Below are positions 1-42,583 of a DNA stretch of 64,000 nt, in pieces. Positions within the stretch are counted from its first letter, which is position 1. Each line of letters opens with the position of its first letter. Both the position numbers and the translations under genes were made by a program. Location: assembly GCF_003073045.1 (NCBI RefSeq), contig NC_037596.1, positions 10,475,950 through 10,539,949 on the forward strand, read 5' to 3'. The stretch comes from Pomacea canaliculata (taxonomy: Eukaryota; Mollusca; Gastropoda; Architaenioglossa; Ampullariidae). Under the pieces are notes generated by a model, which saw nothing but the letters and a program-made list of their open reading frames with translations, was not told where the DNA came from and made no database searches.

Positions 1-809
1 TACCCACTCTCTCCCTCCTCTCTCTGGCTTCCTATAACATTCTCTAGAGGACCTTCCTAAACTATGATGCTGCTCTGTGTCATAGACTTTTGTTATTTTG
101 GGCTACTGGCAACATCTAATAATTGAGAAAATAAAAATTATCTGAGGCAACATGCACTATGTGTATGTCTATTTCCAAGGCCTAGCAGTAGGCTTATTCC
201 TTTAAAATTTGGTGAGGATTTCACAAATGCTGATTCCTCTAGATTTCAGCCACATGCACACAAGCACACACAATATACATACACATATTGCTTTATTTAT
301 AAGATTTATGTATAAATATATAAACACACATGCATATATTGAAAGTCATCTTAGATTTTTTTCTGTTGCAGTGCCGTGCAGGAAGAAAGGGTATGTAATT
401 TTTCTTTCTCCTGTTTACTCACTCTGTCTGCTTTAACCATATTTGCTTGATGAACTTGTTTAGTAAATTCAGTAATCAATACACTGGTTTTTCACACAGT
501 GTATTTATGACAACAGTTATGACTATAAACCAGCAGCAGATGGTCTTTTCTTTTTTTCCCTCCATTTCACTCCACTTTTCCCTCTCTCCTTTGTATTAAA
601 GAGATGAACACTTACACATTTCAAATTTGAAGGATATAAAAAATATTTGAAATTTAATAATGCAGTCTTTTCTTCAAAAATGCAATGTACAGAAACCTAC
701 TTGCAGCCCCTATCCCTTCTGTTTATTTATAATTACCTTGTTCTTGTAATGTTCTTTTTGAATGGATGCAATAACTAGCCATACCCTTTCCATAGAAAGA
801 AAACAGAGA
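1..809. other. No gene recognised
   Basis: A CT-rich start is followed by AT-rich sequence with scattered short open frames. I see no splice-bounded exon, RNA gene or recognisable protein. It may be intergenic or a long intron. Confidence 0.5.
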
Positions 810-1090
810 AATTCCAAAACTACAGAGCCTTAAGCCTAATCAGCCATCCAAGCAAATTCATGGTAGAAGTAATCCAGAATTGCTTCAACACCAGTACCAT
901 GGAAGAACTGCTAGTAGAAAAACAGGCAGAGACACAATTGAAAAGATGTTGAACTGCTGCATCCTGATGGAAAAAAACATCTACATCAGCAGCTAGAACT
1001 CATTCCCAGCTTCATCAACTTAAAAAAGACATTTGACAAAATCTTGCACAGCAGGCTGTAGCACTTTGCTCTTGCAAAAATTCAACATTG
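810..1090 (+). mobile_element. Non-LTR retrotransposon (LINE) reverse transcriptase fragment
   Basis: One frame reads NYRALSLISHPSKFM, followed by EELLVEKQAE. This matches, from memory, the NYRxISLISHPSK...EEQAGFR stretch of reverse transcriptases in invertebrate LINEs. Several in-frame stops follow, and the neighbouring frame still shows a trace of the FIDFKKAFDR motif. Only a few hundred bases of the RT domain remain, so it is a dead fragment. No 5' or 3' end of the element was found. Confidence 0.65.
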
Positions 1091-3325
1091 CAGTCATCCC
1101 AAAGAGTGTGACTAGACTATAGTTTATACAAAGTATATGTTCATTAAATTTATTCATAAATAATACACAAACAAGATTGAATAGAACAACATTCTATACA
1201 TTAGTAATCAACCATAACAGGATAAGGGAACCCACATTACCAAAGTATTTAATTTGGTGTACCCACTATTTTAATGTCTTTCCCTTTGACTTGTTCTCTA
1301 CTAGATCCACTTATGGACATAACTCCTGTCTAAAATAGTAAAGTTCAGGTAAAAAACAATGAAAATTGAGAAAATTAAATAAATGTAATTAATGAAAATT
1401 AAGGGAAATATAAGCATACTGTCCTGGGGATTATTAGTCAAATATTTTTAAAATTCAAATAATTAAAATTATAAGACAGACAACTAATACACAGATGCCA
1501 ACACAAGCATCTTTGATTGGAATTAGGTATGCGCCATATTATTTTTGAGTTTGGGTTTAATAACTTTTTAGCTTAATTTTCATTATTAAATATCATTTGT
1601 TGTTTTTGAATTACATTGATTTTTATGTCTCTGTATGTAGGAAAGATAACAAAGGGCATGGAGACATATCTCACAAGGGAGAGAACGGCTTCACAGGTCA
1701 ACAGACAGGCTTGTTGGATACTACGGAGAACATACAGATGACCACGAATGAGGACTTGCATGCAAACAAACAACACGAAAAATGCTTAAATGGCAATGCT
1801 AAGAACATAGACCATTAAACAGCATCCATAGGGATAAGTAGCCGCTGAATAAATGTAATTTCTGGTTACTTTGAGAGGTAATATGAAAAATAGGCCCAAC
1901 TAATACTATATTCCATATTATATTTTACCATAAACTCTGTATAGACTTGATACTAAAAAAGAAATGCAGTAATCAAAAGCAGTGTAACAGTTTTTATTAT
2001 AAAAAAACAGCTGTGTGAATGCAGCTATGGAGTTTGAGATGCCAGTCAATATACTTGTCAACTTAAACTTCACCAATGGAATTCTTTTAACTCCAAGTAA
2101 CTATGAATAAAGCAAACATTTAAAACTGTTACAGAAAGAGTAGAGAGTGTCCTGGAAGGCATTGCACCAGGTAGTGATGATTTAGGTAGGACAGGATCAG
2201 GAGAAGTTGATCGCTCGTTTATGATTTTGGATCATTTAAAGTTTTTAATTATTATTTCTTTAATTTTATTTTATCATTTTACTGCCTAGGTCTGATTAAC
2301 TGAGAGATTATATTTGGTATGCTGGAAAAACACATTTGAACACGAGCTGTAAATTAGTAGTCGAAGTTCACTTGAAAAGAATGTCATAAAACTTCATTAG
2401 CTTGTTATACACGCATTGAACTGTTACCAAATATGGGGAGCCATTGAGGTCACTAAATAAAATATTATTTGGTCATAATGTGTAAAAATGGGATATATGT
2501 CTAAGCCGCTATTTTGTGACATAAGTAAATAATAATATCCTGTTTATGCATGTGGCTGTAAAGATATGGAATATGTGTGCAGTTTATTAGAAGTTCTCTT
2601 TGGGGGGCATTTACCTTAGGTCTTCTTTGTTGGAATTTCTAGATTTTCTTTTAAAATTTATCCTTTTATATATGTACTTGGATTAGTATATTGTCATACT
2701 TTCTTTATCTGCAACTGACAGTGCTTTCATTCACCTTCACTGTGTACAAGTTTGAGGCCGCTTTTAGGTAACCTGCATGTTGTTGATCTGTGCTTACATT
2801 CTGACATGACTGAATTACTAAATACTAAGAATGTGTTCCCGACCTTATCCGCGATGCCAACATATTGTATCATTTTATTGTGTCTACATGTATTGTTGGT
2901 GGACTTGAATCTTAGGTGTTCATAAGACTTTTGTATGTGCAGTGAAATTATGTTTTTGTTTATATACACATTAAATCGATCATGGTTGACATGCGTTTTT
3001 AATATTTAAAACGCACAGAATCACTGTATTGACAAAAAGTTATAATAATAGCCTAGAAAGGCGTTGACTTTACAAAGAAATAGTCAGAAAAGACAGCATC
3101 TTGGAAGAAAGAACAATTTTTTTTAACAAGGTAAAAGAATGTGCAGAGCGAACGCAGGAAAGTGAATCCTACGTAAAACGCCTTTTCAGATGTATTATAG
3201 AAGTGTCAGCCATGTCTACCCGCTACGTAGCTGAAAATGGCTAAAGAACCCGGATGAACGCGCTTGAGACATGTCGCAGCAAAGCTAGATCTGTTTTTAT
3301 TATCACTTTTTATGTCTATGTTTTC
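1091..3325. other. No gene recognised
   Basis: AT-rich, non-repetitive-looking sequence. Open frames are short and resemble none of the receptor exons found further on. Confidence 0.45.
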
Positions 3326-3689: not shown

Positions 3690-5421
3690 GCTTTTGCGTG
3701 GGGATCATCGCATTGTTCAAAACTAAGTTAGATGATGTACAGCAAACCATTATTAATTTTTTTTTAAAGTTTTACATGAAAGTAATCAAGAAGTTTAACC
3801 AGTTGCTTGGTCGACTACATTGGCAATCAGTTGTTCTCATTCGTTGCTTACATCTAAGATGGATGCCATCACGAACTTGTATCCCTGTTCATGATGCCAT
3901 GTTCTGTTTGATAACATACAACTGTAGAGAGATAATAAACCTGTTACCTAACATTGCCAGCCAAGTACTATAGTCTCGATTATTGTATAACAAGAATTTT
4001 GCATTGCAATATCTGTTGTACATATTTTTAGCCGAATGTGCGTGTACACAAGATTTGTGTACTTAATTCATATTTCCCGTTCTTTGACTTTGTTGTCTTA
4101 GTGGCTGTATTTTGTGTATTGTAGTGAACCATTGTGAAGTAGCGTTCGTAGTATAGTTTTCTTGTGTTTTTATTATTCATTTGTTCACGCAGATTCAGCC
4201 TACTTGGTTGTAATGCTGCGCGCGATATAAATGCTTAGTTGCTTTTAATACATTGAAACTTGAAAACATGTGACAATGAATTTTATGTAATAAATGCAAT
4301 AAAAATAACTGAATTAACATCAGAAGTTTTTATTTTAATCTTAATCCTTTGTTGTCGACTCATAAAATTGTTGTTTTTTTTTTTTGCATTATCTTCCTTC
4401 ACTCTTTCTTTTTTTTTTTTTTTTTGTGTATATTTTCTTAATTCTTATATTTTAGAGATTACTTATTTGCTCATTTCTTGTACCTGAACAATAAAGAAAT
4501 CCAAGTTTTCAAAGTGAACATAAATTTTAGAAACAATTGTAAAAAAAGCACTTGTTAGGTACGAAATTAGATATGGGAAGTGCTTGAGATCCACCAACTA
4601 AGCTGTAATAAGTGCTACATGGAGTAGCCATGGGTCCTTACAATTAAAAATTAATAAATACTTCAATTTTAACACCATTTGAAAATTTAATAAGTAAGAA
4701 TTCTTACTAATGAGACTTCTCGTGAGAGTGAAATCGATTTCTCTTCCATCTCTCAACTCACACACACACACACCTGTTGAATTTAAGCATATCAAACACA
4801 CTCCTTGCGAAAGTCATCTGAAAGTGATTTCTGCCACGGTTACGACTCCAAATCGTGAGGTGTTTACATCCATGCGAAGTTATACATTACCAGACATTAT
4901 GTGTTTAAAAAAATTACTAGATGTGTTGCTAAGTGCGTTCCTTGTTTCTGTATGTGCGCATGCGCTCTTTTTCCTGAGTTATCGAACCCTTTGAATTTAG
5001 CGACTTCATAAAGAACAAACCATACATGCTCACTTGCATAGAAATAAATGTAAACCTGCCTCCGTAAAGCATCCTGAAGACAGCCGACACTACAGGTCAC
5101 CAATCACTGGTCAGGCGTCCGGGTCAGACTGTCAGTGACCAGGAAACTCATTTTCGCTACGTTCTGTGATAGCCACACCTCGGCTTGTTCGCGAGGGATT
5201 TGAATGCGTCATTACATTAACACAATCTGAGATACAGAGAGGTGTAGTGTAGGATGGTTCACCATATCGTTTACTGTAAAGCCTCTCAGACACATGTTTG
5301 AATTGACTTCTCTTCTGTTGTTATATTTTGTGACCCACAACATCCCTCGTGACCATATATACTGTGATTATACAACAAACCGTTCCGTGATCAAAATGAC
5401 ACGTGTGACACAGATGTAAGA
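3690..5421. repeat. 5' flank of tandem duplication, copy A
   Basis: This stretch is a diverged copy of roughly 13430-15479. Shared landmarks are AAGTAATCAAGAAGT followed by TAACCAGT, a (CA)n tract after a run of TCTCT, GAATTTAAGCATATCAAACA, and the CACCAATCACTGGTCAG block close to the receptor start. It is the 5' part of a duplication that continues through the receptor exons (5422-10593 versus 15480-18534). Copy B has about 0.9 kb of extra sequence (14096-14960). Confidence 0.7.
5092..5114 (+). promoter_or_regulatory. Conserved upstream block of T1 receptor genes (copy 1)
   Basis: The sequence CACCAATCACTGGTCAG lies about 330 bp before the ATG at 5422. Related blocks sit 318-359 bp before three other T1 starts (15162, 51763, 57793). 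It contains a CCAAT core. A promoter role is inferred from position and conservation only. Confidence 0.45.
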
Positions 5422-8400
5422 ATGGAGGTGTCTGATAGACAAACTATAGGAAGCATGCTAGCATGTTGTGTGTGGACAAGCTGCAGTTTTCTTCTTCTGA
5501 CTGGTGCATGGATGACAGAAGGTGAGGCTTTCATTCCTGTAAAAGTTTCGTTAAATTGCAAAAACATTCGTCTTTCCCTGCAGGCAGGCAGATCGTCTGG
5601 CTTTTGTTCGTTACATATGAATCTTACGTGTTTAAAGTGATGTTTATGTGTGGATCAAACGCGCGTGCTTTTATATATATATGTGTGTGTTCTTGACTAT
5701 GTGTGCGAGTGATCGCCCAAAGGGGCCTGTGCACATGTTTGATAACAGTTAATATCAATGTAAGATTATTTTTAAGGCGTGAAACTCGAACAGTGCGGAG
5801 CTGATGGGATTGTGGAAATAGTTGCTGGTCAAAACACGTCGTTGACCTGCAGTGCGGAGGGGACAGTCGAGTGGAGACTTATCTGGTTACATAACCAAAC
5901 TTTATTGATAGCAAACTGCACTGAAGGTGTCTGTAGACATGCTGTGTCGGGGATTTTAAATAATTCTGTTCAGGTGCAGGCTCGAGACGTTCATGATAGC
6001 ATGATTACAATCAATAGTAATTAAGAACCTTCCAAAGCTCTATGACAAGGGCCTGTCAATCAACAGTAGTCGGGAGTGTCTTCTTATGTCAGGAAAATAT
6101 GTAGCAGCTCGCTGTGAACTCGACTTGTGACAATTACACACCTCAGCATCGTTGCCACATTTTTGCTACAAGATATATGCTAACAAATCCCCAAGCCAAT
6201 AATAATAATCACTTTTCAAACTTAAAGTCCTATATCGAGAAAAGTTTATATGTTGGCATCAGTCTAGGTGTTCATAACTATGACATTGAAATGGGTTGGT
6301 AAAGATATCAAATTAGTGAATTACAAAACATTTCCTGTATGCTGCACAGGTTGAGTCAGTCCTATACTATTAATACTGTACCTAGTGTAACTGCCCAATC
6401 AAAGGTCATCATTGATAGTAGTAAGTTCATATCATCCACCGTAGGATCTTAATCCAGGACTATCGTATTCAATAGTACCTATCAGTATACAGTGGTTTAG
6501 GAAGATGCTCAGTCAGCTTTTGGGGGGGAAGGGGGCAAACTGTATGCTGACAGTGAACAAAGCAACACTCCGGCAGGCTGGTTTTTTTTATAATTTTTGT
6601 TTTTTGATTTCCTTTTGGAATACTGGTTTGTAAGAGACCAGAGACCATATTATTATCAATCAACTCATGCTCGACACTCTATGCCACAAATTAGCAATAG
6701 AGAAATTAGACTGGTGCTCTTTCTCCTGCTTTTTCTGGTCTCAAAGCTTGTAGGAGGTGTAATGTTACAAACAGAAGGGTAGTTGCTGGATGTTAGAAGT
6801 TGTCAAATTAGTCTTAAAGGTACATGTATTCACTAGAGATAAGTAGCAGTTATAAGGAAGTATAGACATAAACAGATTTAGATACTGATATTTATTGACC
6901 TATTTCAAAATGTAAGAATATAACAATTAATTTGGTTGTTTAAAGTGTACAGTTTTTATTGTGTCAAGAATGTATAGTAGCCAAGAAGGTGACGATAACT
7001 GTGTGACCGATTTCTTCATTTATTTATTTTTCAGCTGATGCATTTGGAGTAGAACTGAAATGTCCGGACTTGTTTCACAATGGAGTGAACACTGTTATCT
7101 GCAGAATCAATAAAACAGCAATCAGAGAAGCACATTGTTTCTCGAAGTACAAATCGGTAACTTTTGGCTTGACCATAAATGACCGCACAACAGTTGCATG
7201 TCTGTCTCAAGATTATGATCCAGATGCACAGTGCACTCCTCAGTATGACCCAGGGAGTTGCAGGTGTCAGGAGTCAAATGGAGAGATTCTCACCTATAAA
7301 TTTTTTTTCCTGGCTAACAGGACACTGGATGAAGGGGGACAACTTGAGTGTAAACTCTGCATTTTGCCAGAAAAGCCTCTGCCTATTAATATTAGTAGGG
7401 GCTGTCGAAATATCAGCTTTGGTGAGTAACACATCTGTTTTCACACACATAAATATCAATAGATCAAAGGTGATAGTGCTGGATTTATCTCATAATTTAA
7501 ATAGTTTTCTAATATCTCCAGTACTCTATAGTTATAGTTTATATTTCATTACTTGATCTAGTCATAGATATCAAGTTGGGGCCTTCATCGTAAAATTATT
7601 TTTAAGATTCAGTAAATTAAAATAATGGTTTGATTCTAACACAATTTACCGTGATTTCCTTGTGTGACAGGAGGTGAAAATGCTCGCTCTCTTTTCAGAT
7701 ATAAGATTCCCAGCATGTGCCTCCAACCCAGCTTTATGATTGCTGTTCTCAATAGTTTTATTAGGAAGCTGTTGTTGATGTGCACTTTTTCTATTTTTCT
7801 TATTTCACACTATATTACAGCAATACAAATGCCAATAACCAATCTAACACAAATATATGAAAAAAAAGTATGCAACACAACAACTCCAACAGTCACAGAA
7901 AGAAATGAATAACCTCTTTTTTCACTTCCTTCCCTCCTTGTACACTTTCCTGCATGAAATGCACAAATTAAAGCATCATTACATGCAGGAAACTGCTACC
8001 ATTGCACATTAGGTTCTTACACAAGTTCCACAGTACATCAAAAGAAGTAAGGTCCATATCTTTAAGTACAGCCCATGAAATTAAATCTTTTATTTTGTTT
8101 CTATAAATCATCTATTTTTATTTTGAATTGGTCATTAAAGGTCCCTGCATTTTCAAATCACATTCCTTTATTCTTGCTATCAGGCAGACCGTCTAACTTT
8201 TATTTCCTCACGAATGAATCTCCCTTGTTTCTGTGAATTAATATGTGTATGCAAATTTCTCGTTTCTTACAATCAGACAGATCATCTAGCTTTTGTTCGT
8301 CACTTACGAATCTTACGTGTTTGATGTGATGTTTCTGCGTGTATCAAACGTGCGTACTTGAGTATGTGTGTGCGCATCGCTCATATGAATCTGTGCACAG

Positions 8401-10593
8401 ATGTTTGCAAACAGTTCATATTTATATCGGGTTATTTTTCAGGAGTAAAACCCTGATGGAACCGTGGAAATATTTTTAAAGTTCTCGTATTTACTTGCCT
8501 TGTAAATGAATGTTACTTGTTTGAGGTCTGCATGTTTAGATGCTTGTAGTCATTTAAAGTGAGGAAAGAAGAAGACTTTATACTAGTCCTTTGGGAAGAT
8601 ATTTTAAAATTAGGTTCATAGGCAAGATCTTGAGTAGCTAATGACGATTGCCTCTTTAGCGAATGTTGAGAGAAACAGGTAATGTCCTCATGATCTTGTT
8701 GTACTTCTGTTTAGTCTCTTCACCTTCTACTCAGTATTTACTACCATCTCTTACTTAACAGATCCACCAGAAGAAGTGTCATGTGAGGCAGTCTATACCT
8801 TAGGGTCTGTCAACGTGTCCTGTGTCATTGGCAAAGTCTATTCCTCGCGTAGAATTTACAAGTGTCGTCTGTTCCAACGTAAGAATGAAGTAAGTGTTTC
8901 TAATCTCTTTTGTCGTTTTTTTACAGCAATATTGAATTGTAGATTTATACATATATTCGCTCACTTAATGCTTCAGAGCTAATGCAACCTTTCTTAGTGT
9001 CTCGGAAGAACACAAATTGCTACCTTGGATAGAGATATTCAGCTTGTTGGTATGTTTGTTTCTACAGTCATCTACCAGCTTGCAGACTGTAGAAATGGTG
9101 ACCTCACCGACCAGTCAGAAGACCATCAAGAGTGAAGTGAAGGTGTCGGGTTCCTGTCAGTTCAGCACAACTCTCTCTCCAGAGGAAGGATGCTATGATC
9201 TTTTCGTCTCTGTCTCACCTAGCGGGCGGAACTACTCTGTGAATTTTACAACCAGTGACTATTGTACAACTACTGGTAAAACTATTGCTATGAATAGTTT
9301 TGTTTAATTTATTCATAATATTTTTTTTCTTTCTGAAAAATCTTTCAGCACAGAAAATTCTGCTTCAATACAATCCCTTTCCCAACAACAGACAGGGTTA
9401 GTAGTAGTGATTTGTAACCGGATGAATGAAGATAGCAAACAAGTCCGACACTAGTTATTGCCATGATACATAAGCCTAGTTGCTGTCATGGATTAAAACT
9501 CAAACAGCAATCATCCTCAGGTTTATAGGTTTTCGACAGAAAACTAGAATAAGCGACTCGGTCGACTTCATCGTATTTTCGGTTTTACTGAAGGGCTCCA
9601 TCATTGTTTAGCCTCGGATTTGTGTGCCTCGTCTTACTTTAGCCTTCGACTAAAAACTGAGGAAATATTTCTTTCAGCCACTGCATACATCATGCTCTGT
9701 GCACCTACATCTGAACTGTTGCCCGACTGTCACATATAAATTAGGTTAATATAAAGTGCATCTATGGCAATTGTATATATATAAGAGATTGCTGGGTTCA
9801 TAAAGTAAGAGAGAGCTTGAGTACATCGATGTAAAAGCACAAACGATATCTGTAGAGGCGGTGTACTTTGGTATTTTACACCGAACCAGCATCTAAGGAC
9901 ACATGCAGAGAAAGAATAGCGTGCCTAACACAAGATTTGAACCCAGGATAGCCAAATGTCAAAGTGTTTGTGACAGGCACTATCTGTTGAGCCATCAGGC
10001 CATCCACAATATCCTTAAAACCTTCATTAAAGAAGTTGATTATGAAAGACAAACTCATGTCATGATTTCTAACTTTGGTAGTGTTTTGAACTATGTATAA
10101 TGTAAGAGATATTTTGGATATGAATACACTTGTGTCTGCATAAAATAGCTATTCCTTTTCTCCTTTTCTTCTTTTCCCTTTTCTGCTTACGCTTCTGTTC
10201 TTCCTCCTTTCTCTCTCTATCTCTCTCTCTCTTTCTTCTTTTCTCTCTCTTCTATCTTTGACGATTGTTTAAAGGTAAAAACAGCCTTGTACTAAAGGCA
10301 AGAATGTGCATTTTTGAACTGTACAGCAAGGGATTACGCGACAAAAAATGAGAGAGTGAGATGTATGAGCATTTGGTAGACGAGTGAAATTTTACAGATG
10401 ATTTTGTTTTTTATTGCTAACTTTTCTGTTTGTGAAGACCAGTCCAGTGTATCGTCTCAGCAACCTGTCATGGAGTCAGTGGAGGCAGCTGCTTTCATAG
10501 TGCCTGCAAGTGTTTCTGGTATCGTCGTCTTAGTCTTGATCTTAGTCTTGATCCTTGTCATCATTCGCCACGTGACAAGGAAGAAGAGAGAAG
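5422..10593 (+). CDS. T1-like receptor locus 1: mosaic, possibly chimeric type I membrane receptor
   Basis: The exons I can place are: signal peptide 5422-5521 (33 codons, hydrophobic SCSFLLLTGAW core, ends phase 1); a broken Ig exon from 5777; an intact T2-type domain exon 7035-7421 (phase 1-1); T1 second-domain exons 8762-8889 and 9068-9275 (joined at phase 0); and a transmembrane exon 10438-10593 (long Val/Ile/Leu run, then RKKRE). Skipping the broken Ig exon and splicing 5521 to 7035 and 7421 to 8762 keeps frame throughout, giving a T2-T1 chimeric ectodomain. The last donor (GTTAAC) is weak. No cytoplasmic exons like those of locus 2 follow; a transposase-like repeat lies there instead. 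It is either a pseudogene or a novel chimeric receptor, and only transcript data can tell. Confidence 0.6.
5777..6130 (+). pseudogene. Broken Ig-like exon of locus 1
   Basis: The frame opens as VKLEQCGADGIVEIVAGQNT and stays close to the Ig exon of the 15480 gene for about 80 codons, including LTC, the WRL tryptophan and the NCTEG segment. After ITIN it has a net four-base insertion relative to that paralogue and runs into a stop. Further small deletions follow, including loss of the segment with the distal cysteine. The acceptor at 5775-5776 is intact. I see no usable donor equivalent to the one at 16300. Confidence 0.75.
7035..7912 (+). CDS. Embedded T2 receptor cassette (ectodomain exon plus transmembrane-like exon)
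   Basis: Exon 7035-7421 is 387 nt, phase 1-1, and fully open. It begins DAFGVELKCPDLF and keeps the T2 pattern: CP-x11-C, RINKTA, GSCRC, LECKLC and a final GC. A second exon, from 7671 after TGTGACAG, is also phase 1 and begins GGENARSLF, matching GGQNSIFSF of the T2 transmembrane exon at 49496. It runs through a hydrophobic stretch (IAVLNSF...LLLMCTFSIFLIS) to a stop at 7910-7912. I found no T2 signal-peptide exon between 6130 and 7034, so expression would need the T1 signal exon at 5422. The hydrophobic segment contains Arg-Lys, suggesting decay. This T2 unit appears to have landed inside a T1 gene. Confidence 0.6.
8160..8472 (+). pseudogene. Second relic of T1 intron 1 and truncated Ig exon
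   Basis: This region repeats T1 intron 1 (TCTTACGTGTTTGATGTGATG, CTGTGCACAGATGTTTG) and then an acceptor TTTTTCAG at 8435-8442. Only about 30 bases of Ig exon remain (GAGTAAAACC, a deletion, then GTGGAAATA). The sequence then joins directly to T1 intron 2 (TTCTCGTATTTA...). Locus 1 therefore contains two partial T1 copies: the first gives the signal exon and broken Ig exon, the second gives the exons from 8762 onward. Confidence 0.7.
9830..10015 (-). mobile_element. tRNA-derived SINE in a T1 intron
   Basis: On the minus strand it reads TGATGGCTCAACAGATAGTGCC (box-A-like), then GGGTTCAAATCTTG (box B), then a tail containing CTTTCTCTGCATGT. A homologous copy sits at the same intron position in the 15480 gene (17830-17995). 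The insertion therefore predates the duplication of the two genes. Confidence 0.65.
10196..10256. repeat. CT-rich microsatellite
   Basis: Polypyrimidine tract of TCTCTC/TTTCTTC units in the intron before the transmembrane exon. A similar tract lies at 18120-18215 in the paralogous intron. Confidence 0.8.
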
Positions 10594-15479: not shown

Positions 15480-18400
15480 ATGGACGTGTCTGATAGACGT
15501 ACTATTAAAAGGATGCTGGTGTGTTGTGTGTGGACAAGCTGTAGTTTTCTTCTTCTGACTGGTGCATGGATGATAGAAGGTGAGGCTTTCATTCCTGTAA
15601 AGGTTTCTTTAATTTTCAAATCAGATTCCTTTTTTCTTGCAATCAGGCAGATCATCTAGCTTTTGTTTGTCATATAAATCGTATGCGTTTCTGTAAAATT
15701 ATATGTGTTTGTATAAGTGCCTTCTTTTATATATATAATTATACATGTGGGCGCTTGTGTGTGTGCGCGAGCGCTGGAGTACGTGTGCGCTTGATCGTGC
15801 AAATAGACCTGTACATATACATTTGCTAATAGTTAATATCTGTTTCAGTTTGTTGAATTTTCTTTTGTTTTGTTTTGTTTTTTTGTTGTTTTTGTTTGTT
15901 TTGTCTTTTGTTTTTTGGTTGTTTTTTTTTTTTTTGCAGGCGTAAAATTTGAACAGTGCGGAGCTGATGGTATTGTGGAAATAGTTGCTGGTCAAAATAC
16001 CTCGTTGACCTGCAATGCGGAGGGGACAGTCATGTGGAGACTTATCTGGTTACATAACCAAACTTTACATATAGCAAACTGCACTGAAGGTGTTTGTGGA
16101 AATACTATTTTGGGGGATTTCAATAAATTATTTCAGGTACAGGCTCGAGGCGCCAATGACAGCATTATTACAATTAATACTGAGAAACTCACAAAGCTCT
16201 ATGACAGGGGGGTGTCTATTAACAGTAGTCTGGTGTGCTCTCTTATGTCAGCAAAACATACCGTGACTACAGCAGCTCGCTGTGAACTCAACTACGTGCG
16301 TGAGTAGTTTTTAATGTTAATCATGTAGGTTATTCTTGTATAATTATTACACAAAATCTATTACACGAATAGCAATACTTTCTCTATATTGGCTCCTGTG
16401 CAAACATTGTTAGCTAATGTGTGTTTGTTATCACAGGTTAGCTTGACTCAACAGACCAGCTGTCGTCCTTTTAAATAGTATTCATTTAAATAATTTTTCT
16501 ATTTGTAACACTCATGTTTGTCATCGGAATTATTTTTAATTCTCGTATTTAGTTGCCCTCTAAGTGAAGGTTACTTGTTTGAGGTCTGCATGTTTAGATG
16601 CTGGTATTCTCTTTAAGTGATGGAAGAAGAGGACTCTATAGCAATCTTTAAGGAAGATATGGTTTTGAAAGCAGGTTCACAAGCAAGGTCTTAAGCGTTT
16701 TGTCATTCATTAAACAGGTCACTAGCAGGTAATGACGATAGCCTCTTAACAGAATTTAAGAAATTTAAGTAATGTAGCCATTGTACTACAAATTATTCTA
16801 CAATTTCTTCTCTTCACCTGCTTCTCGACCTTTATCACTATCTCTTCCCCAACAGATCCACCAGAAGAAGTGTCATGTGAGGCAGACTATACCTTAGGGT
16901 TTGTCAACGTGTCTTGTGTCATTGGCAAAGTCTATTCCTCACGTAGAATTTACAAGTGTCGTCTGTTCCAACGTAAGAATGAAGTAAGTGTTTGTAATCT
17001 CTTTTGTCGTTTGTATAGGAAATGTCGATTATATATATACATGGGTTATATTTTCATCTACGTTATGCTTTACGCTATTTCAGCCTGTATAATTGATCTC
17101 AGAAGAGCATCCATCATAGCAAATTCCTGCATAAGGTGGATATATTCAGCTTGTTTGCATGCTTGTGTCTACAGTCATCTGCCAGCTTGCAGACAGTAGA
17201 AATGGAGACTTCACCGACCAGTGAGAAGACCATCAAGAGTGAAGTGAAGGTGTCGGGTTCCTGTCAGTTCAACACAACTCTCCCTCCAGAGGAAGGATGC
17301 TATGATCTTTTCGTCTCTGTCTCACCTACCGGGAGGAACTACTCTGTGAATTTTACATCCGACGGCTGTTATTCGACTACTGGTAGAACTTTTAGTATTG
17401 ATGTTTTGTGTTTAGAAGTGATTATTTTGTTGCTGCAAAATCTCTGAGTGCACATGCACTTCTACTTCAATACAATCTCTTTCCCAGCGCTGGGCAGTGT
17501 TAGTAGTCATCTGTGGCCGTATGCATGAAGACAGTGAATACATCCACAACTATACACTAGCCGTAATGTTGCCTTAATTGCTGATAAGGCGAATAACTCA
17601 ACTCATTTAATTCTCGCATTCTCGGTGTTTCTACCATTCCTTATGCTTCGGTTTTGTATGCCTCATGTCTTATATTAGCTTCCTGCACTAAAAGACTGAG
17701 CAAAGATTTCTTACAGCCGCTGATTACATCCTGGTTGTATGCACAAATGAGCCTGTAGTTTCATACCTGTGATTTATTGTTACCCGACTGTCACATTTAA
17801 AATAAAGGTTTACAAAATAGGAATCAGCGTGTGTACATCTGTGTAAAACCACATACGATATCCGTAGGGGGAATGGGTAGTGGCCGAGCCAAAAATCAAC
17901 CATCTGTGTAACATAGAAAGAGACGAGATTCGAACCCAGGACAGACAAACGTCAATGACAGGTGCTAACCTTTGCTCACTTAATAACCACCCGCAATAAA
18001 ACCTACATTAAAGTTGTTTGTGAATGATAAAAACTCATGCCATAGGTTCTAATCATTGCTAGTGTTTTGAAAGGTTTAGGCTATATGTTTTGGATATGAA
18101 TACGCTTGGATCGGAAAAAACGAAATATTCGTCATTCTTTTCTTCTTTTCAGTTTCTTGCTTCTCTCTTTTCTTTCTCTCTTTCTTTATCTTCTTCCCTT
18201 CTCGCTCTCTCTCTCTCTCATTCTACGTGTGACGCTTGCTTAAAGGTAAATGCAGCCTTGTAGTACATGCGAGAATGTTCATGTATGAGCTACACAGCAA
18301 GTGATTTCATGACAAAATGAGAGAGAAGAATGGTGAGTAACATTTTACACCCATTTAATTATCTTATTGCCATCTTTTCTGTTTGTGAAGACCAACCCAG

Positions 18401-21400
18401 CATTTCGTCTCAGCAACCTGTCATTGAGTCAGTGGAGGCAGCTAGTGTCATAGTGCCTGCAAGTGTTTCTGGTCTCATCGTCCTCATCTTCGTCCTTATC
18501 ATCGTTGGCCATGTGATTAGAAAGAAAAGAATAGGTACACCAGGTTTTGTCTCTCTGTGTTATAAGTTGTATTCAACATTTGTGATTGCTGGTAGTAGTA
18601 GTAGATGTTAATATGACTTTCTCAACATATGTAAAAGCTTTACAGGTAAGAATTGTAAAAGAAATTCAATTTAAACATTTTAAATAACTGAAGCACACAA
18701 GCGACAACAGATATTCGTGTTTAAGTTAGGGAACGAGTCTCTAAATTCATCACAAATCTAGATAACAAAAAAGGCTACTGTACAGTTTTTGTAAACTTCA
18801 TACAGCAAATGCTTACAAAGTGAATTAGGTTGGGTTTTTTCGTCTTCGTGTGACTTCATTGAATCATTCTTCATGTACAGGCTGCTGGAGGACGAAAAAC
18901 CACATCAAGAAGCATGAGGACTCTATTGACAGTGGTATGAATACGGTGGTTGTTGTTTTTTAAATTTTATGATTTTTGTTTCTTTTTCGCGTAGTAAGGC
19001 GTTTTCTTATTCAAGAAAACACGGAAAAGTCTTCGTTTGACGAATGTAGAAAACAATGTGCGGCAGAAAATCTGTGAATATATTTTCCTTATAAAGTCTA
19101 CTTCGATGTCTCAAGGAAGAATATTACCTGAAACAGGACACAAGAAACAAAAACAAAATAGTAGTATCTAAGAAAAACGGAATATATTACATAAAAATTC
19201 AGTTTCAGTTCTTTTTTCTTTTATTGTATGTTTATGTTTATCTGTAAGGTCTTATAGGTTTCATTTTCTCAAAGTTAGATTAACAGTTTCTACAGCCATG
19301 TCTGTACTATCTGCCAAGTTTACACTTTCTAATCTCCGAACGCCTGGATTAATTTGCTGAGATTTGTCTGTTTCGAATAGTTAAACGGAAAATATATAGA
19401 CTTCACCTTACCATGACTTCCCTACCTTATTGTTATCTTTTCTGAAGCACGGATGCTGTGACATGGTTGAGTGCAGCATTCTTATTTTCCTCCTTTTTCT
19501 CTGTTTCTGCCTTATACTATGTTTGTATCATTGTTTGTTGATATGTTTGGTCTGTATTTGAAGAAGTACTGTTTATTTTTCATTCCTTTTGCACATTGAG
19601 TCAACTCTGCAGTTGAGAGATCCGCTGTATAAATCCACTTTATTAGTAGAATTAGTAGAATTGAAACTGTTTTTCATCTAATTTAATTCATGTAAAACTT
19701 ATAAGGTAATGATTACTTAACTTTCCATTGAGTCATTTTTCAAATATATTAAAAGTAGTCAGTACATAACCGCAACAATGCCGGTCCCCCCACGCGTTGC
19801 GTTGTTCAATCTAAAATCTCGTTGCTAATTCTGGAAGGTGTGAAGATGCAGCACCACTACGCTCTAGGTTCCGAACAAGAACGCAAAGGTCAGTATAGAC
19901 AAAATGGCAGAAGAAGAAACAGATGGTGGTATTCATGTCGAGTCCACAATTGTCAGCGCCATTTAAAAAAAAAACCTCACGACATGATGAGTGAGAGGTT
20001 TTTGGAGAATTGTATCACTCGTATCTGTTCATTATTTAAGTTTCTTTATTTTCCAGAGAGTAAATAAAATAAGTCAATAGACATGCTGTAACAAAGTAAA
20101 TGATCTGTAATTGTCCTTTAAAAGACTATAACTGTCATAGTTACGACACGAATGCCAGCCAGATGCCATTATTTTACTTTTGGTTTGGTTTATTGTATGC
20201 TACATTTGTTTTGTTCTTTTTTCAAATTAACCTCGTATTCATAAGTGACTTTTATAAATAAAGCTCTCTTTAAAAAATCTTGTCACCCATTGAACAATTA
20301 AATATGAAAATATGGGCGAAGAAATAATAGATAAGAGATATATGTTTCTTTATGAAGACCGAAAAAACAATCTTGATGAATAATTATTTCGATCATTATC
20401 TGCTATATTCAGGTATCATTTAAGCACCATAACTCTACAGTAAATCCTGCATTCCATCATGTAGTACTGTGGGAATTAATGCAAGCTATAACATTGTCTT
20501 GTTTCAGGCAACAAGCAGAACCTGCCGGCTTTGCAAAATTATGAAGATCCTCGGGATTTAGGTGTATATCTGTTGATAAAGCTTATGTAATTTTTAAATG
20601 TACATAAATATTACCATCTTGAAATTTTATTATCGTATATCAACAAGAACCTAGATTGTTTATACTTTAAACATCTTTTTCCTTATATATGGGTGTAGTT
20701 ATCTGTTTCCATAGTTTCTTAATTTTAACTATGTAGACTCTTACTCTAAACTATCTGTAGATAATTCATTAAGAAACGATCTTTTACCTTGAGATTTTTT
20801 CTTTGAATCAAGAGAAACTAAGTTGAATAACTACTTTCTTTAAAATGAAAATGTATGTGGTGCAATTGATCACGTGATCTTTCAGTGTCATTTAGGACTA
20901 AGCTGACGATGGCAGAGATGAACGACAAAGATGTACGACTACAGGAAGATGAGAGTCAACTGTATGATGTCTTAGATTACACAAAGCAGAAATCACGGGG
21001 AAATGGCCGTCAAAACCAGGTCTGGAGAATCGAGAAGAACAAAGAAAAGAAGCAAGATCCAAAAAGTAGGTTGACGATATCATCGTTGTCGTCGTCATTT
21101 CAATAGTCATTATCAAGCTCACAGCATACGATTCAGATCCCTGACGTGGTAGTTTATCATTTTGATCATTCATTATTGCTGAGAAGCCCGGACACTGCTC
21201 AGAACTGATTCATTAAGTCTACCATTGAAGAATCAGATTTTACAATGTCAATAATCCTTACATCTCTTCCCAGGGTTCGAGAACTGTGAGTACGTGACCC
21301 TAGGTCAGTTGCCGTGGAAACGACAAGCTGCTTCGTGCACCCAGGCTGCTGCAAGTTCCGAGACATCCTGTGCACGTGTACAAAACGTCACCGACAGGAT

Positions 21401-32334: not shown

Positions 32335-33419
32335 TACCTGTGTGTGTGTGTGCCTGCATGTGCTGTAAGCGGACCAAACACTGTGATCGGATCATCGGCT
32401 CCTAAAGAGCAATCAGCCCGTTCCTCGTTGTTGTTCCAGGGAAGAGGTCAAAGGTTCCTATATTCCTTAGACTTTAGCACTTACTTGTAGGTGTGATGCC
32501 TGATCTAATATCTCGCGTTATGTTATGTTGTTTTTTTGTTGTTTTTTTTCACTAAATACACACCCAAACTTATCCGACCTTAGAATCCGGATCAGATTTA
32601 ATTTACAACTGCTTTGACATCACTCAGGTCGTTTTCTCAAGGTACAGACATCTCATTCATTCAGACCAGGACAAATATATGACATTTTGTACAGACATGA
32701 AGAGGTGTGTGTTGTCAGGAAACACACGACTGAGACTTAGTACGAAGTGCGGTCACCAACCTCGTAGAACACCAGAAACCATCTCTTGCAATTGTCATGC
32801 ATGAGATGGACTTGTTCGGCCATGCAGTCCAGTACGACTAAGTGCATTCTTCAGAATACTTTGAAGACACTGGGCAGAAGAAGACCTGGTTATCAAGTGT
32901 ATAGGAGTGGACTGGTCGTTCCTTGTAGGACCTTCTTATCATCGCTTGACACTGTCAGCCGCTGCGTCTCTCCATTTGTCCCCTGACCCCAACCCCTCGA
33001 TGACCAGTATCAACGGACCATCATAATCGCTCGTCAGCTGGTACAAGTCAAGAGATTATTTATGTATATTTTTACCTCTTAATATCTATGTATTTACTCC
33101 ATCAGTAGGAATAAGAGAGCCACTAGCCGCAGTCTAAAACCCTCCATGGCGGGTAAAACTTCTTAACATTACATGTACGTTTGATATATAAATGGACCGA
33201 TTTAATATTTGGTGTTTGAAAACATGTTGAGGCTCTTCTTAAAATGAACTTTACTTAGTGCACACTAATTTTCAAATTAATTATGCATTTTCTGTGAATA
33301 CTGATCATACCACTTAGTCTATGGTGACTTTTTGTCTAACTCGGAAGCATATAATGCAGACAGCTTTGTGTAAGGATGGTGCCCGGATTTTCTTTTTTTT
33401 TTTTTAATGTCTTAATTTT

Positions 33420-33672
33420 TTCAATCTTCAGGTCTGGTACCAGCTGGGTCAGCAAAGGGCAAATAAGGCTCCTGGTAGTTTGTCACCTAGAAGGCCTGGG
33501 TTCAGATCTCGTTTCGGGTCACTCGATCTCTGTAACATCAGTTGGCATGGCTTGCCGTCGGAGGTTTTCTCTGGGTACTTTGGCTTTCTCTCCACTTCCC
33601 TCTCCCTCAATAATGCGAAGTAACCTCAAGTTGAAGGCTATTCATACCCAAACAAACAACAACAAATACAAC
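33420..33672 (+). mobile_element. SINE-like repeat (unit 1 copy)
   Basis: A tRNA-like head (box-B-like GGTTCAGATCTC) is followed by GGTTTTCTCTGGGTACTTTG and a tail AACAAACAACAACAAATAC. The same element lies in unit 2 at 41890-42150 with better-preserved GGTTCGGATCTCG. Confidence 0.55.
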
Positions 33673-33820
33673 AAAAAATCGCTATCAAGCTAGCACGCTC
33701 TCAGGATCCGACGTTAGCGCTGTCACCTCTGTTATAGCATTATACATAACAGTTCGAATAAAGTGCCCGTGGAACATAAAAATCACAATGTTTGCCCTCC
33801 GGTTAGGTTGTGCATGTTTT

Positions 33821-34037
33821 ATCACGTGTGTATTATGTTTGTGTGCGTTAACTGCGAGCGCCTGTGGGTGTCACCGTAGCGAGGTAACGCCATGCAGTCA
33901 AAACACGTGATAGGCTCTTGTATCACGTGATTCCCCCCCCCCCCCCTTGTTTTTTTTTTAAAAGATCTCGTCAGTGATATACGTATGAGTAGTTTCTCAG
34001 AAGTACGACCTATTTACGTTCAGCCATGTATCACGTG
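33821..34037. promoter_or_regulatory. Cluster of four CACGTG E-boxes upstream of the T2 stub
   Basis: CACGTG occurs at 33823, 33904, 33923 and 34032, within about 300 bp before the ATG at 34114; several are in TCACGTGA context. All four are conserved in the duplicate upstream of 42584. CACGTG is the core site of bHLH-zipper factors. A regulatory role is inferred. Confidence 0.4.
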
Positions 34038-34113
34038 ACTTTTTTTGGCGAAACAGCTCGACTCTGTTCACTGCATTGCACTAAGGGCTCCCAGCTAAAC
34101 AGGAGAAAGAAAT

Positions 34114-34165
34114 ATGTATATTGAACTGGAATTTCTGATTTTATTCGTCTGTCTCTCACTTGAAG
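34114..34165 (+). pseudogene. T2 signal-peptide exon stub
   Basis: MYIELEFLILFVCLSLE followed by a donor GGTAAG, nearly identical to the start of the T2 gene at 42584. No ectodomain, membrane or tail exon follows before the hAT element at 35265. The copy appears truncated by the duplication breakpoint. Any transcript would have to splice across the transposon block into the 42584 gene. Confidence 0.7.
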
Positions 34166-35629
34166 GTAAGAATTTATTTGCTTTTTGATCTGCAAAGCTG
34201 GGCGGGTGAGGCCATGGGCAACATTAGATTGGCAATACATGTTACCATTATTTACAAACAATGCATCTTTATAAGATGTAAACTGTTGTTCCATTTGTGA
34301 ATAGTGACTTTTTCCCTCTTACAGAAAAGGTCCTTAGTCTGACAGAAAAACAGAAATTTTTGTTTAGTACAAAGTAATTTTACTTGTAGAAGATGTTTGT
34401 CTTGTAATCAGTGCAAATAAACAGGATCAGTAAGTGAGGGTCAGACAGCGAAGGAAAGGTTTCCAATAATTTTTCCAAGGTCTGGCTGGCAAACAGCCAA
34501 ACAACTGATCTTCCGAACGACAAGCTTCATAGGTTATAAATGGTGTAGTTGTGGCCTGGATATGGTAACCCTGATCATTATTCTCATCTGAATAGCAGAC
34601 CGTTGTGGACTAGAGATCCCACTCTCACTCCTATTACTCATTGTCGCTATATATAGAGTTGATGATGATGATGGGGTTTTATAACGCGCAAAATCCGTAT
34701 CATGGAGAAACGCTCAATGCGCCACAAGCATAGTTCCACAAGCTATCCTCGCCAAGCGGTTCATTGTACACTGCCTGGTGTTCACATTTCGCCAGTCTGT
34801 TTCCTACAAAACACTCTCCCTTCACTCTGTTTGAATGGAAAAGATAACTGCAAATACTGGCAAGAAAAAAACCCACAAAACTTACAATCACATCCCAAAG
34901 AATTCTGAAGAGATAAAGTCATTTGAATCTCACGCACACCCGAACTTAAGATTGATCGGTAGATTGATCGACAGATTGACAAACAAATATAATCCCAGGC
35001 AAGTGTAGATATAATGTTCCAAATGAAGGTATGTAAAAAAGACATTCTCCAAAACCTCGCTGACGACACATTACACAGCCATCCATTGTGACAATGCTAA
35101 AAAAAATCAAACACCAAGGACTTACATAATTAGTCTAATGCATTTTTTTAGTTCAGTGTTGCTTGGTTTGTAACAAGGAGGTTAACAAATTGATAAATAA
35201 CAATAACCCAAAGTAGCAACACCTTTGCGTTACTAAACAAACGGGTGTCACGTGCTCCGATGTGCAGGGATGGGCAAGCTACTTTCAATTTGTAGCCTAC
35301 ACTACAGCTACAATTTTCCAAAACGTAGCCAGCTACTTTGGGCTACTTTTAAAATGTAGCCAGCTTCTTTTGGCTACTTTTTAAAGCGTGATGTTATAAA
35401 AGTTGGCTGTAGCCAGCTGGCTGTAGCAACATACACAAACATCAAACGTACACACAAAACACTATTACTTGCTAACACAAGAACTGGTTTTTATATACAT
35501 TGACCTTTATTCTGATCTGAGACCACCAAAAACTCCATATTAACAACAAAATGCATAGGTATAAAACAAACTTTTGACTTAGTGCTGATAATTTGTGAAT
35601 ACTGTTAAAACAAATCTACATGCTTTCAG

Positions 35630-37400: not shown

Positions 37401-37573
37401 TACCTGGCAAATCGTTCCCGCCACATGGACGACCCAGTACTTGCGGTTACTGAGCGTGCGAGACACGTGGGTGTCTGGCTGTCAACACACCGAGCAGTGA
37501 GAGCAGTGGCTGTCGTCGTCTTGCTGACACGCTGTCGACGAATGGTCGTGAAAGTAGCCAACATGTAGCCAAG

Positions 37574-38064
37574 TGTCATGGATCTAGTCAGAGTGCTAGG
37601 ACTGGGCGCGTGTGTAGATGAAAGCGTGCGAATGATGGACGTTCTCTAAATAGAACGTGACAAATGACGTAGAGTGACGTAAAAAGAAATAGTGAGGTAA
37701 GAGAGAGGATCGTTGAGAGGGGATATGGAAGCAGAAGGACGGAGAGGACATTTTTTTTGGAAGAAGAAGGAGGTTAAAAGAGCGGATAGAAGACGGAGTG
37801 AGTTAGAAGAGAGCCTTTGCCAAGACAATGTGCCTCGCGAGTGAGTAAAAGATTGAGTGTGATAGTCAAAGAAGAAACCAGCGTGTTAGTGACTGTATTT
37901 TTTTAGTCGAGATTTCTTCTTTTGAGTTTTTGTTTAGTAAACAAGGGCAGACTCGATCGAACAGGCGAATCTTTTTTTTTTCTGAGTGAAAGAACGCGCA
38001 ATTGTCCGACCCGCTGGTGAGTTTGAGAGAGCGAGAAACTATAGGCACCGGCGGCGTCGTGACA
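37574..38064 (+). repeat. 5' LTR
   Basis: 491 bp, starting TGTCATGGATCTAGTCAG and ending GGCGTCGTGACA. By eye it is identical to 40229-40719. Confidence 0.9.
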
Positions 38065-40228
38065 ATTTGGTGACCCCGACGTGATTCGCCTGTTGCGGGT
38101 CTGTCTGCGTCGTGAAGAAGCTGAAGGATTTCTTTTAAAAAGATTCGTAAAAGAGAATATAAAGAGAGTTAGAATGGCTGTTCAGGAACAAACTCCAGGA
38201 TGGTATATTCCTGAACTCCCCATATTCCAGGAAGACAAAGACGACATAGATGACTTTTTATGTGTATTTGAAACACAAGCCCAAGTTCTCAACTGGCCGA
38301 AAGAGATGTGGAGCCTGAATCTGGCCGCTAAGTTGCAAGGCCAAGCCTTGAATGTGTATTGTACATTGGCTCGCAAGGGGGAAACTAGTTATGAGATGTT
38401 AAAAGAGAAATTACTACGGACTTTTCAGCGTGCAGAAGAGGAATACAGAGAAAAATTTAGAACTGTGCGGCCTCATGCTACTGAATCCATGACGGCCTTC
38501 TTGAAAAGAATATCCTACCTAGCGACAGATGGATTTCCCGCACCAGATACCGAAGGATTATGAACACTTGAGAGATCTGCTACTAACAGAACAATACTAT
38601 GAAAGTGTGTCTAAAGACCTATCCGTACACCTGCGAAGAGAGAGGCTTAACCACAGCTGATGCTTTGGCAGAGCAGGCTGAGCGTTACCGGATGGCACAT
38701 CCAAACAAGTGTCTGGCGAGAAGGACCGATACATCCTTGTTCGCCAAAGTGGGATACAGCTCCCAACCTTCATCTATTATGACGCAGTCGCAAAAAGAGA
38801 AATGCGAGCGATATCCTTCAGAAGCAGGGCAACAGGAATTTTCCTTCCCACAGAGAGGTAGAAGAAATATGCCACCTCCTAGATCCGTTCAAAGCATGTC
38901 GTCATCAAACCATTGGTTGGAGAAGGATGACTCAGACCATCCATTACATTGGACACCCCCAAGGCGATGTTACACTTGCCAACGATATGGACACATAGCC
39001 AGGTATTGTCATTACCATAGAGCTCGATACCCAAACAGCAATGAAGCTACCCTGAGAAAGGAGAACCGTCTCCGGCAAGTGTCACTGCTATGTTTACAGC
39101 CTCAAACAGAAGAGAAAGAGCACAAGAACACAGATACCAAGTAAATGTTAGAAGGGAAAACTACTCATCATTATCTAGAGTCTGAGAGGACCAAGGCTCA
39201 ACGTGTGTCACAAGCACAACAGCCGTCAATACAGAGAGAATCAACTCTTCAGGAGGTTCATGAAGAACTGAACCACAAAATCAACGACCTCAGTGATGAA
39301 ATCAAAGCCGTGCAACAAAGTTTACAGAACTTTAAAGAAATACAGAACATCGTGAACGCAGATTGCAGAGAGAAATCAGTGACCGGGACAAAGAAATTAT
39401 TCGGCTTAAGGCTGAGACAGAGGTTTGGCGAAAAGAAAGAGATGAAATGTGTAAACAACAGTGGGTCACAGTTGGTGACTTTGAAGAAAAAGTTCACGAA
39501 CTTGAATTAGGTCATAAGAAACAGTCCGATGACCTTCAGAAAGCCTTAGCAGAAATCAAATTCTTCAAGGAACATAAAGAAAGCATGAAGAAAGAACTTG
39601 AGAATACTGTAACACAAGAGAAATCTCTGGAAATGGCAAATACTGAGACTAACAAAGTGGTGGAACGATTGACAAAACTGATAAGAGAACTCAAACAAAT
39701 ATACGATGACGAGAGAAAAACTAAAAAGGTGTATCTGGGCATGAGACACCAGAAGTCGAGTGAGATAGAGGAAAAGACGACAGACATTGGCACCTTGGCC
39801 AAAGAAGTTGAGGTTCATCAGACCTTCAAAGAATTCAAGACAGATCTGGGAAAAGTCAAGAAAAAACGAGCATTTTCAGAGGACTATTATGGGACAACTT
39901 TCAAAGATTTAGGATATCTGCTGCTAAGTTTTGAGCCAGAGGGCAAAAACAAGAAGACGAAAATTGTGAGAGCTCTCAAGAAGAGAACTGTCAAACTAAT
40001 CTTTACATGAGTCTGTAAGGATAGAATACAAGCCTACTATGACTGTTGATTTTCAAAAGAGACGTGTCGCGAGAAAAAGGATATTGTTATTTACTGTAAA
40101 ATTCAGAGAAAAAAAGAGTGACTACGAACATTAACATTGGGATTAGTATAGTGTTTGTCATGTAACCTAGCTTTACGGACTATGAAAAAAAATTAGGAAA
40201 ATTTTTTTTCAATGGAAGGGGGGAGAAA

Positions 40229-40719
40229 TGTCATGGATCTAGTCAGAGTGCTAGGACTGGGCGCGTGTGTAGATGAAAGCGTGCGAATGATGGACGTTCT
40301 CTAAATAGAACGTGACAAATGACGTAGAGTGACGTAAAAAGAAATAGTGAGGTAAGAGAGAGGATCGTTGAGAGGGGATATGGAAGCAGAAGGACGGAGA
40401 GGACATTTTTTTTGGAAGAAGAAGGAGGTTAAAAGAGCGGATAGAAGACGGAGTGAGTTAGAAGAGAGCCTTTGCCAAGACAATGTGCCTCGCGAGTGAG
40501 TAAAAGATTGAGTGTGATAGTCAAAGAAGAAACCAGCGTGTTAGTGACTGTATTTTTTTAGTCGAGATTTCTTCTTTTGAGTTTTTGTTTAGTAAACAAG
40601 GGCAGACTCGATCGAACAGGCGAATCTTTTTTTTTTCTGAGTGAAAGAACGCGCAATTGTCCGACCCGCTGGTGAGTTTGAGAGAGCGAGAAACTATAGG
40701 CACCGGCGGCGTCGTGACA
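40229..40719 (+). repeat. 3' LTR
   Basis: 491 bp direct repeat of the 5' LTR, directly after a purine-rich tract and followed by the CCAAG target duplication. Confidence 0.9.
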
Positions 40720-41889
40720 CCAAGCTACAGCTACTTTCTAAAATGTAGCTACGGCTACAAGCTACTTTTTTTTTAATTTGTAGCCGGCTACACTACAAGC
40801 TACAAAATTTGTAGCCGGCTACAGTAGCTGTAGCTTGGCTACAGCTACTTCCCATCCCTGTACCTGTGTGTGTGAGTGCCTGCGTGTGCTGTAAGCGGAC
40901 CGAACACTGTGATCGGATCATCGGCTCCTATAGAGCAATCACCCCGTTCCTCGTTGTTGTTCCAGGGAAGAGGTCAAAGGTTCCTACATTCCTTAAACTT
41001 TTGCACTTACTTGTAGGTGTGATGCCTAATTAATATCTCGCGTTATGTTTTTTTCCCCACTTAATACCCACCCAAACTTATCCGACCTTAGAATCTGGAT
41101 CAGATTTAATTCACAACTGCCTTGACATCACTGAACTCGTTTGCTCAAGGTACAGACATCTCATTCATTCAGACCAGGACAAACATATGACATTTTGTAC
41201 ACACACAAAGAAGTGTGTGTTGCACGACTAAGATTCGTACGAAGTGCGGTCACCAACCTCGTAGAACACCAGGAACCAATTCTTGCAATTATGATGCGTG
41301 TAATGGGCTCGTTTGGCCATGCAATCCAGCACTACTAAGTGCCTTCTTCAGAATACTTTGAAGACACTGAGGTGGACAGAGGAAGAAATGGCAGAAAGTG
41401 TACAGGAGTGGACTGGTCGTTCCTTGTAGGACCTGCTCATCATTGCTTGACACTGTCAGCCGCTGCGTCTCTTCTTTTGTCCCCAACCCCAACCCCTCGA
41501 TGACTAGTATCAACGGACCATCATAACCGCTCGTAAGCTGGTACAAGTCAAGAGATGATGTATGTATATTTTACCTCTTAATATTTATGCATTTATTCCA
41601 TCAGGAGGAATAAGAGAGCCACTAACCGTAGTCTAAAACCCTCCATGGCGGGTAAAACTTCCTAGCATTACATGTATGTTTGATATCTAAACGGAACGAT
41701 TTAATGTTTGGTGTCTGAAAACATTTTGAGGCTCTTCTTTAAATGAACTTTATTTTGTGCACACTAATTTTCAAATTAATTATGCATTTTCTGTGAATAC
41801 TGATCATGCCACTTACTCAGAAGCATATCATACAGACAGCTTTGTGTAAGGATGGTGCCCATATTCTCTTTTTCGATGTCTTACTTTTT

Positions 41890-42150
41890 TCAATCTTCAG
41901 GTCTGGCACCAGCTGGGTCAGCAAAGGCAAATAAGACTCCTGGTAGCGTAGTGACACTCGCTTGTTACCTGGAATCCCTGGGTTCGGATCTCGTCTCGGG
42001 TCACTCTCTGTAACATCCGTTGGCATGGCTTGCCGTCGGAGGTTTTCTCTGGGTACTTTGGCTTTCTCTCCACTTCCCTCTCCCTCAATAATGCGAAGTA
42101 ACCTCAAGTTGAAGGCTATTCATACACAAACAAACAACAACAAATACAAC
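41890..42150 (+). mobile_element. SINE-like repeat (unit 2 copy)
   Basis: Paralogue of 33420-33672. The head GGTAGCGTAGTGACACTCGC and box B GGTTCGGATCTCG are tRNA-like. The tail ends in AACAAACAACAACAAATAC. Confidence 0.55.
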
Positions 42151-42301
42151 AAAAAATCGCTATCAAGCTGGCACGCTCTCAGGATCGGACGTTAGCGCTG
42201 TCACCTCTGTTGTAACATTATATATAACAGTTCAAATAAAGTGCAAGTGAAACATAAAAATCACAATGTTTGCCCTCCGGTTAGGTTGTATCACGTTTTA
42301 T

Positions 42302-42507: not shown

Positions 42508-42583
42508 ACTTTCTTTACCGAAACATCTCGACTCTGTTCACTGCACTGCACTAAGGGCTCCCAGCTAAACAGGAGAAAGAAAT

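Follow-up and report, generated by a model that had tools for sequence, protein, structure and literature searches.

Locus 1 lies in a stretch of 64,000 nucleotides of Pomacea canaliculata DNA (the window, C7:10475950-10539949; coordinates are those of the window, negative numbers being upstream of it) in which genes of two receptor types, T1 and T2, are found. It comprises, in this order, an intact T1 signal-peptide exon, a broken T1 Ig exon, a clean T2 domain exon, a second Ig exon reduced to a stub, and the intact T1 exons 3-5 (Table 1). The first-pass annotation had proposed that the T2 exon replaces the broken Ig exon in a T1 gene, and most of its description of the locus could be reproduced: the five exons of the chimeric reading lie at the positions it gave, bounded by AG and GT, and yield 979 nt with no stop when joined; the T2 exon is intact and sits between the T1 signal exon and T1 exons 3-5; and the second Ig copy, put at about 30 nt, retains about 33 nt. 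The first Ig exon is broken as claimed, about 4 extra nucleotides near 6014-6020 shifting its frame onto a TAA at 6022-6024, and its splice donor is gone. The statement that all junctions are phase 1 holds for three internal junctions but fails for the one between exons 3 and 4 (8889/9068), which is phase 0 because these exons measure 128 and 208 nt. If the transmembrane exon is left unspliced at 10593 the frame stops about two codons further on, and no cytoplasmic-tail exon common to loci 1 and 2 was found in the region searched.

Table 1. Features of locus 1, its sister gene and the donor gene (window coordinates)
Feature	Position	Strand	Remarks
Putative cytoplasmic-tail exons of donor T2 gene	372..1818 (about 372-390, 1641-1818)	+	open tail ending in stop, read by eye
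Putative promoter, T1-type upstream region of locus 1	5084..5421	+	14.2% divergence from locus 2 (46/324 sites)
T1 signal-peptide exon, intact	5422..5521	+	ATG, hydrophobic leader, GT donor; 82% aa identity to locus 2
Broken T1 Ig (V-like) exon	5777..6125	+	frameshift, stop 6022-6024, donor lost
Copied segment, 2,021 bp, source C7:10470626-10472811	6126..8146	+	blastn to T2 gene 11.3 kb upstream
T2 domain exon, intact, phase 1-1	7035..7421	+	invariant cysteines of 28-member alignment retained
Second T1 intron-1 stretch, partly duplicated	8149..8442	+	matches locus 2 15612-15711, 15622-15690; locus 1 5585-5785
Second T1 Ig exon stub, then intron-2 sequence	8443..8475 (end approximate)	+	about 33 nt with internal gap
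T1 exon 3	8762..8889	+	dN 0.02, dS 0.07 vs locus 2
T1 exon 4	9068..9275	+	dN 0.087, dS 0.111 vs locus 2
T1 transmembrane exon	10438..10593	+	in-frame length difference of 12 nt vs locus 2
Locus 2, intact T1 sister gene, reference here	15480..18534	+	

Blastn searches of the window and the 9,949 bp upstream of it matched positions 6126-6568 to -5323 to -4879 (92% over 445 columns) and 6583-8146 to -4656 to -3138 (89.6% over 1,584 columns), the segment being an approximately 90% identical copy, in the same orientation, of the central part of a T2 gene. Copy and donor differ overall at 122 of 1,957 aligned sites and by 14 indels. Donor (in two pieces) and copy apart, no second full-length copy of the segment occurs among the 41 genome matches listed in a search that passes over simple repeats and very frequent words; the other matches listed cover small parts of it and look like dispersed repeats. 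One such dispersed repeat, at the right end of the segment (7772-8100), is also present on several other contigs. The T2 exon of the donor is at -4256, with candidate signal exons upstream of the copied part and the transmembrane exon, from about -2680, also outside it; scanning found no signal exon in 6126-7034 of the copy. The T2 exon therefore seems to have come with neither a signal nor a transmembrane exon and to depend on the host gene. No homologue of the donor's putative tail exons was found in the region searched. At the left junction (6125/6126) T1 sequence continues until a few bases before the end of the Ig exon and is followed by T2-gene intron, which replaces the last few bases and the splice donor of that exon. 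At the right junction T2 intron gives way, at about 8146, to T1 intron-1 sequence, the motif TAAAGGT being common to donor and host at this point. The T1 side of locus 1 is itself a mosaic that carries a partial Ig duplication, probably the older event: between the intron-1 stretches on either side of the insert 37 of 167 sites differ (22%), and their divergence from locus 2 is 31% and 34%. Since these flanking stretches differ more than the introns of copy and donor (104 of 1,570 sites), the partial Ig duplication probably preceded the T2 copy, provided that the clocks are similar and gene conversion played no part.

Searches of the genome (440,159,624 bases in 24 contigs) retrieved at least 54 T2 exon matches, clustered on C7; at least 50 T1 Ig matches, 3 of them on C1 and the rest clustered on C7; and at least 104 matches to T1 exons 3/4, including 4 on C1. 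The exon-3/4 matches listed for C7 form 52 groups, in a survey that omits the 4 exon-3/4 and 3 Ig rows on C1 and also, for the Ig exon of locus 1, its second piece (10481963-10482073), the order found being unaffected by the latter. Of the 52 groups, 44 have an Ig exon no more than 3 kb upstream that is closer than any T2 exon, and locus 1 is the only one in which T2 is the closer of the two. The other seven have no Ig exon within 3 kb, although a second Ig query places one near two of them (10440334 and 6911327), and a same-strand T2 exon within 10 kb upstream is absent from all seven. A second T2 query (40 matches) disclosed no T2 places beyond those of the first T2 search. Over C7 9.65-10.54 Mb and 6.6-6.9 Mb, T1 and T2 genes alternate, often with T2 followed by T1 on the same strand at about 3-10 kb or with both head to head, and a small T1-like group is found on C1 near 31.7 Mb.

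T1 and T2 look like separate gene types. Each of the three T2 genes in or adjoining the window has its own transmembrane exon; such an exon lies within 1.5 kb in 10 of 30 T2 loci (these include the copy, itself without one), and many T2 genes may therefore end otherwise, in a GPI-like or secreted form. Between T2 and Ig, no transmembrane exon was present in the single pair fully covered. A permissive scan detected a candidate signal exon before Ig in 28 of 29 T1 loci, all but L059, with the reservation that in its control, locus 2 (L031), both candidates listed differ from the signal exon known there; a scan of this kind gave a T2 signal candidate in 3 of 17 T2 loci and in the donor. That T2 and T1 might be modules of one gene, as the many T2 exons about 3-10 kb upstream of a same-strand T1 Ig exon could suggest, was considered and set aside. 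We treat them as neighbouring genes because the T1 genes of L044, L045, L051 and L053 have plausible signal exons of their own, and because L072 and L073 have a short exon with a stop after the T2 exon. Read-through splicing between neighbouring T2 and T1 genes may occur. The short exon after T2 is conserved in L072 (about 1840-1950) and L073 (about 2108-2205), its stop following a hydrophobic stretch in a frame read by eye, and would perhaps be a GPI-anchor signal or a secreted end in place of a transmembrane exon. Also by eye, an extra Ig-like domain exon seems to come after exon 4 of a T1 gene (L073:6897-7200). Within the window, positions 32335-34306 and 40861-42776, 8.5 kb apart and 88-96% identical in pieces, form, upstream of a T2 gene, a segmental duplication, and two 300-bp direct repeats of 100% identity surround open frames at 37571-40525, which resembles a young LTR-type element; these frames carry what we take to be a zinc-knuckle-like motif.

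An open chimeric frame is unsurprising in itself because any T2 exon in the same orientation with phase-1 borders reads through; in the family, 55 T2 and Ig exons could be given such borders under a rule that itself required phase 1, so that this regularity is partly assumed. Chance does not account for the 2-kb copy, which matches the donor at E = 0, or for its position, seen in one of the 52 exon-3/4 groups. Among 55 family sites of each kind, the T2 exon of locus 1 ranks at 0.87 for its acceptor and 0.67 for its donor, and the acceptor of the dead Ig exon ranks at 0.05, in a model that takes one bias from the exonic bases of T2 and Ig exons and another from the phase-1 rule under which sites were collected. 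We used this model for T2 and Ig borders only, since T1 sites that are intact, namely the signal donor and the borders of exons 3-5, rank at 0.00-0.09 in it. At 6294 a cryptic donor of middling strength (score 8.9 against a family median of 11.8) could retain the broken Ig exon, with its stop, in some transcripts.

The T1 Ig module is predicted to adopt a V-type Ig fold and to belong to the Immunoglobulin superfamily: an AF2 model from 29 aligned family members reached a pLDDT of 88 and was matched by Foldseek to TCR and antibody chains (E 4e-6, TM about 0.6-0.74), and Pfam Ig_3 scored 16 bits, under the cutoff of 30. The T2 module probably has the same fold, on weaker evidence, its model (28 members aligned, pLDDT 89) matching V-type Ig domains weakly and its alignment having additional conserved cysteines. 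No Pfam family exceeded the cutoff for any of four module sequences, and the one Ig module searched against the PDB had no significant sequence match. Should T2 have this fold, the event would swap one V-like tip for another.

Loci 1 and 2 diverge by 23-31% in their introns and by 14% in the 5' region. Their T1 exons give a dN of 0.097 and a dS of 0.162, the corresponding values for the Ig exon ahead of the frameshift being 0.133 and 0.262. When changes in exons 3 and 4 were polarised with three and five outgroups, respectively, 1 synonymous and 4 nonsynonymous changes (5 in total) fell on the locus 1 branch and 3 and 10 (13 in total) on that of locus 2, with 3 and 1 (4 in total) ambiguous. 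Exons 3-4 of locus 1 have evolved no faster than those of its intact sister; about 11 changes (336 sites x 0.034) would be expected had the locus been dead since the insertion. T2 copy and donor differ by 13 nonsynonymous and 5 synonymous substitutions, which six distant outgroups assign as 5+3 (8) to the copy, 5+2 (7) to the donor and 3+0 (3) as ambiguous; the divergence between them is 4.7% in the exon, 4.3% in the downstream intron and 8.6% in the upstream intron. With a dN of 0.044 against a dS of 0.062, purifying selection is not clearly visible in the swapped exon, which on its own is compatible with neutrality. In neutral simulations placing half of the divergence on the copy branch under a set transition bias, the probability of remaining intact under three calibrations was 0.14, 0.19 and 0.29 for the T2 exon alone, 0.06, 0.10 and 0.17 for exons 3-5, and 0.005, 0.012 and 0.031 for all five exons. 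Constraint on the locus 1 gene as a whole is moderately supported.

These data bear differently on the accounts that can be given of the locus. Were locus 1 a decaying pseudogene, the T2 copy and the deletions would be rearrangement debris of a tandem cluster and the chimeric frame would still be open because too little time has elapsed; the broken Ig exon with its lost donor, the truncated second Ig copy and a T2 exon that evolves near the neutral rate and would often enough stay intact by chance (P 0.14-0.29) fit such decay. Survival of all five exons by chance is far rarer (P 0.005-0.031), exons 3-4 have changed less on the locus 1 branch than on that of locus 2, and the upstream region is conserved more than the introns, which make this the less likely account. 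The contrast in constraint between exons 3-4 and the T2 exon would be explained by a live gene that leaves the T2 exon unused, splicing the signal exon to exon 3 to give a short receptor with the membrane-proximal domain only, and this frame is likewise open, the lengths and phases of the exons giving a join of phase 1 with phase 1. We consider it improbable, as the T2 exon retains the invariant cysteines of the family alignment and would be skipped with no visible cause, its splice sites being intact and high-ranking. Finally, a T2 fragment or an alternative haplotype might have been misjoined inside a T1 gene, in a family that is clustered and repetitive and in a species whose published assembly had heterozygous contigs filtered; that assembly used long reads (PMC6129957), the copy differs from its donor in sequence and by indels, and both flanks match T1 gene sequence, all of which renders an assembly artefact very improbable.

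We therefore favour, as the probable reading of the sequence, that locus 1 is a T1-type receptor gene with a copied T2 domain exon, a hybrid receptor gene generated by exon shuffling. The shuffling claimed in the first-pass annotation stands at the level of DNA, where donor gene, copied segment and both junctions have been identified, save for its detail on phases: the donor exon with its intron flanks is found at a second site within a host gene, in the same orientation, with compatible phases and intact splice sites. Transcription would start at the T1 promoter, and the T1 signal exon would be spliced to the T2 exon and this to T1 exons 3-5, skipping the Ig remnants. Exon definition would tend to bypass the latter because the first has no donor of its own and the second almost no exon left. 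The predicted product is a single-pass receptor with a T1 leader, a T2 V-like tip, a T1 membrane-proximal second domain and a T1 anchor. A local duplicative rearrangement, with TAAAGGT shared at the right junction, may have been its origin; retrotransposition is disfavoured because introns were copied together with the T2 exon. Whether this makes locus 1 a working new receptor, its membrane-distal V-like domain swapped between interleaved gene types and donor, breakpoints and dead exon still readable, is a more tentative proposition to which we would give slightly less than an even chance.

The process is already known, comparable swaps having occurred elsewhere. The KIR cluster of mammalian NK receptors encodes Ig-type proteins with one exon per domain, its genes recombine and exon 3 of KIR2D genes is a pseudoexon. 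Locus 1 resembles it in clustered Ig-type receptors, a domain exon out of use and recombination, but belongs to another phylum, involves other domains and pairs a broken exon with a copy from a different gene type. The CEACAM/PSG family is likewise a cluster of Ig receptors, with recombination and gene conversion between its members; conversion between close paralogues is described there, as well as exchange of signalling regions (PMC2832619), whereas in locus 1 a domain exon was inserted between gene types and no sequence similarity was noted between the domains. Nearer in taxonomy, the Biomphalaria GRC/PTC1 region is a snail cluster of polymorphic single-pass receptors in which one exon of grctm6 looks like an insertion, at the very place where allele S1 is dissimilar to the others (PMC4361660), and an allele of this gene differs over a whole exon; unlike locus 1, 4 of the 7 GRC genes are said to carry fibronectin III domains, immunoglobulin going unmentioned in the accessible portion of that text (PMC4361660). 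FREPs are also said to diversify partly through exon shuffling (PMC10875847). We recognised no description of the T1/T2 receptor cluster in the literature searched, which does not prove its absence. New here is a T2 exon within a 2,021-bp copy of the middle of an upstream T2 gene, without signal or transmembrane exon.

Domain swaps in receptor clusters are usually inferred from old, blurred events. Locus 1, at 4-9% divergence, still shows the donor, the segment copied from it, the two junctions and the exon put out of use, and the birth of a chimeric receptor is thereby directly testable. If our reading is true, the interleaving of T1 and T2 genes would let swaps of this kind arise in the cluster as a standing possibility, and if the chimera is expressed, this molluscan cluster would make new receptors by the exchange of whole V-like exons.
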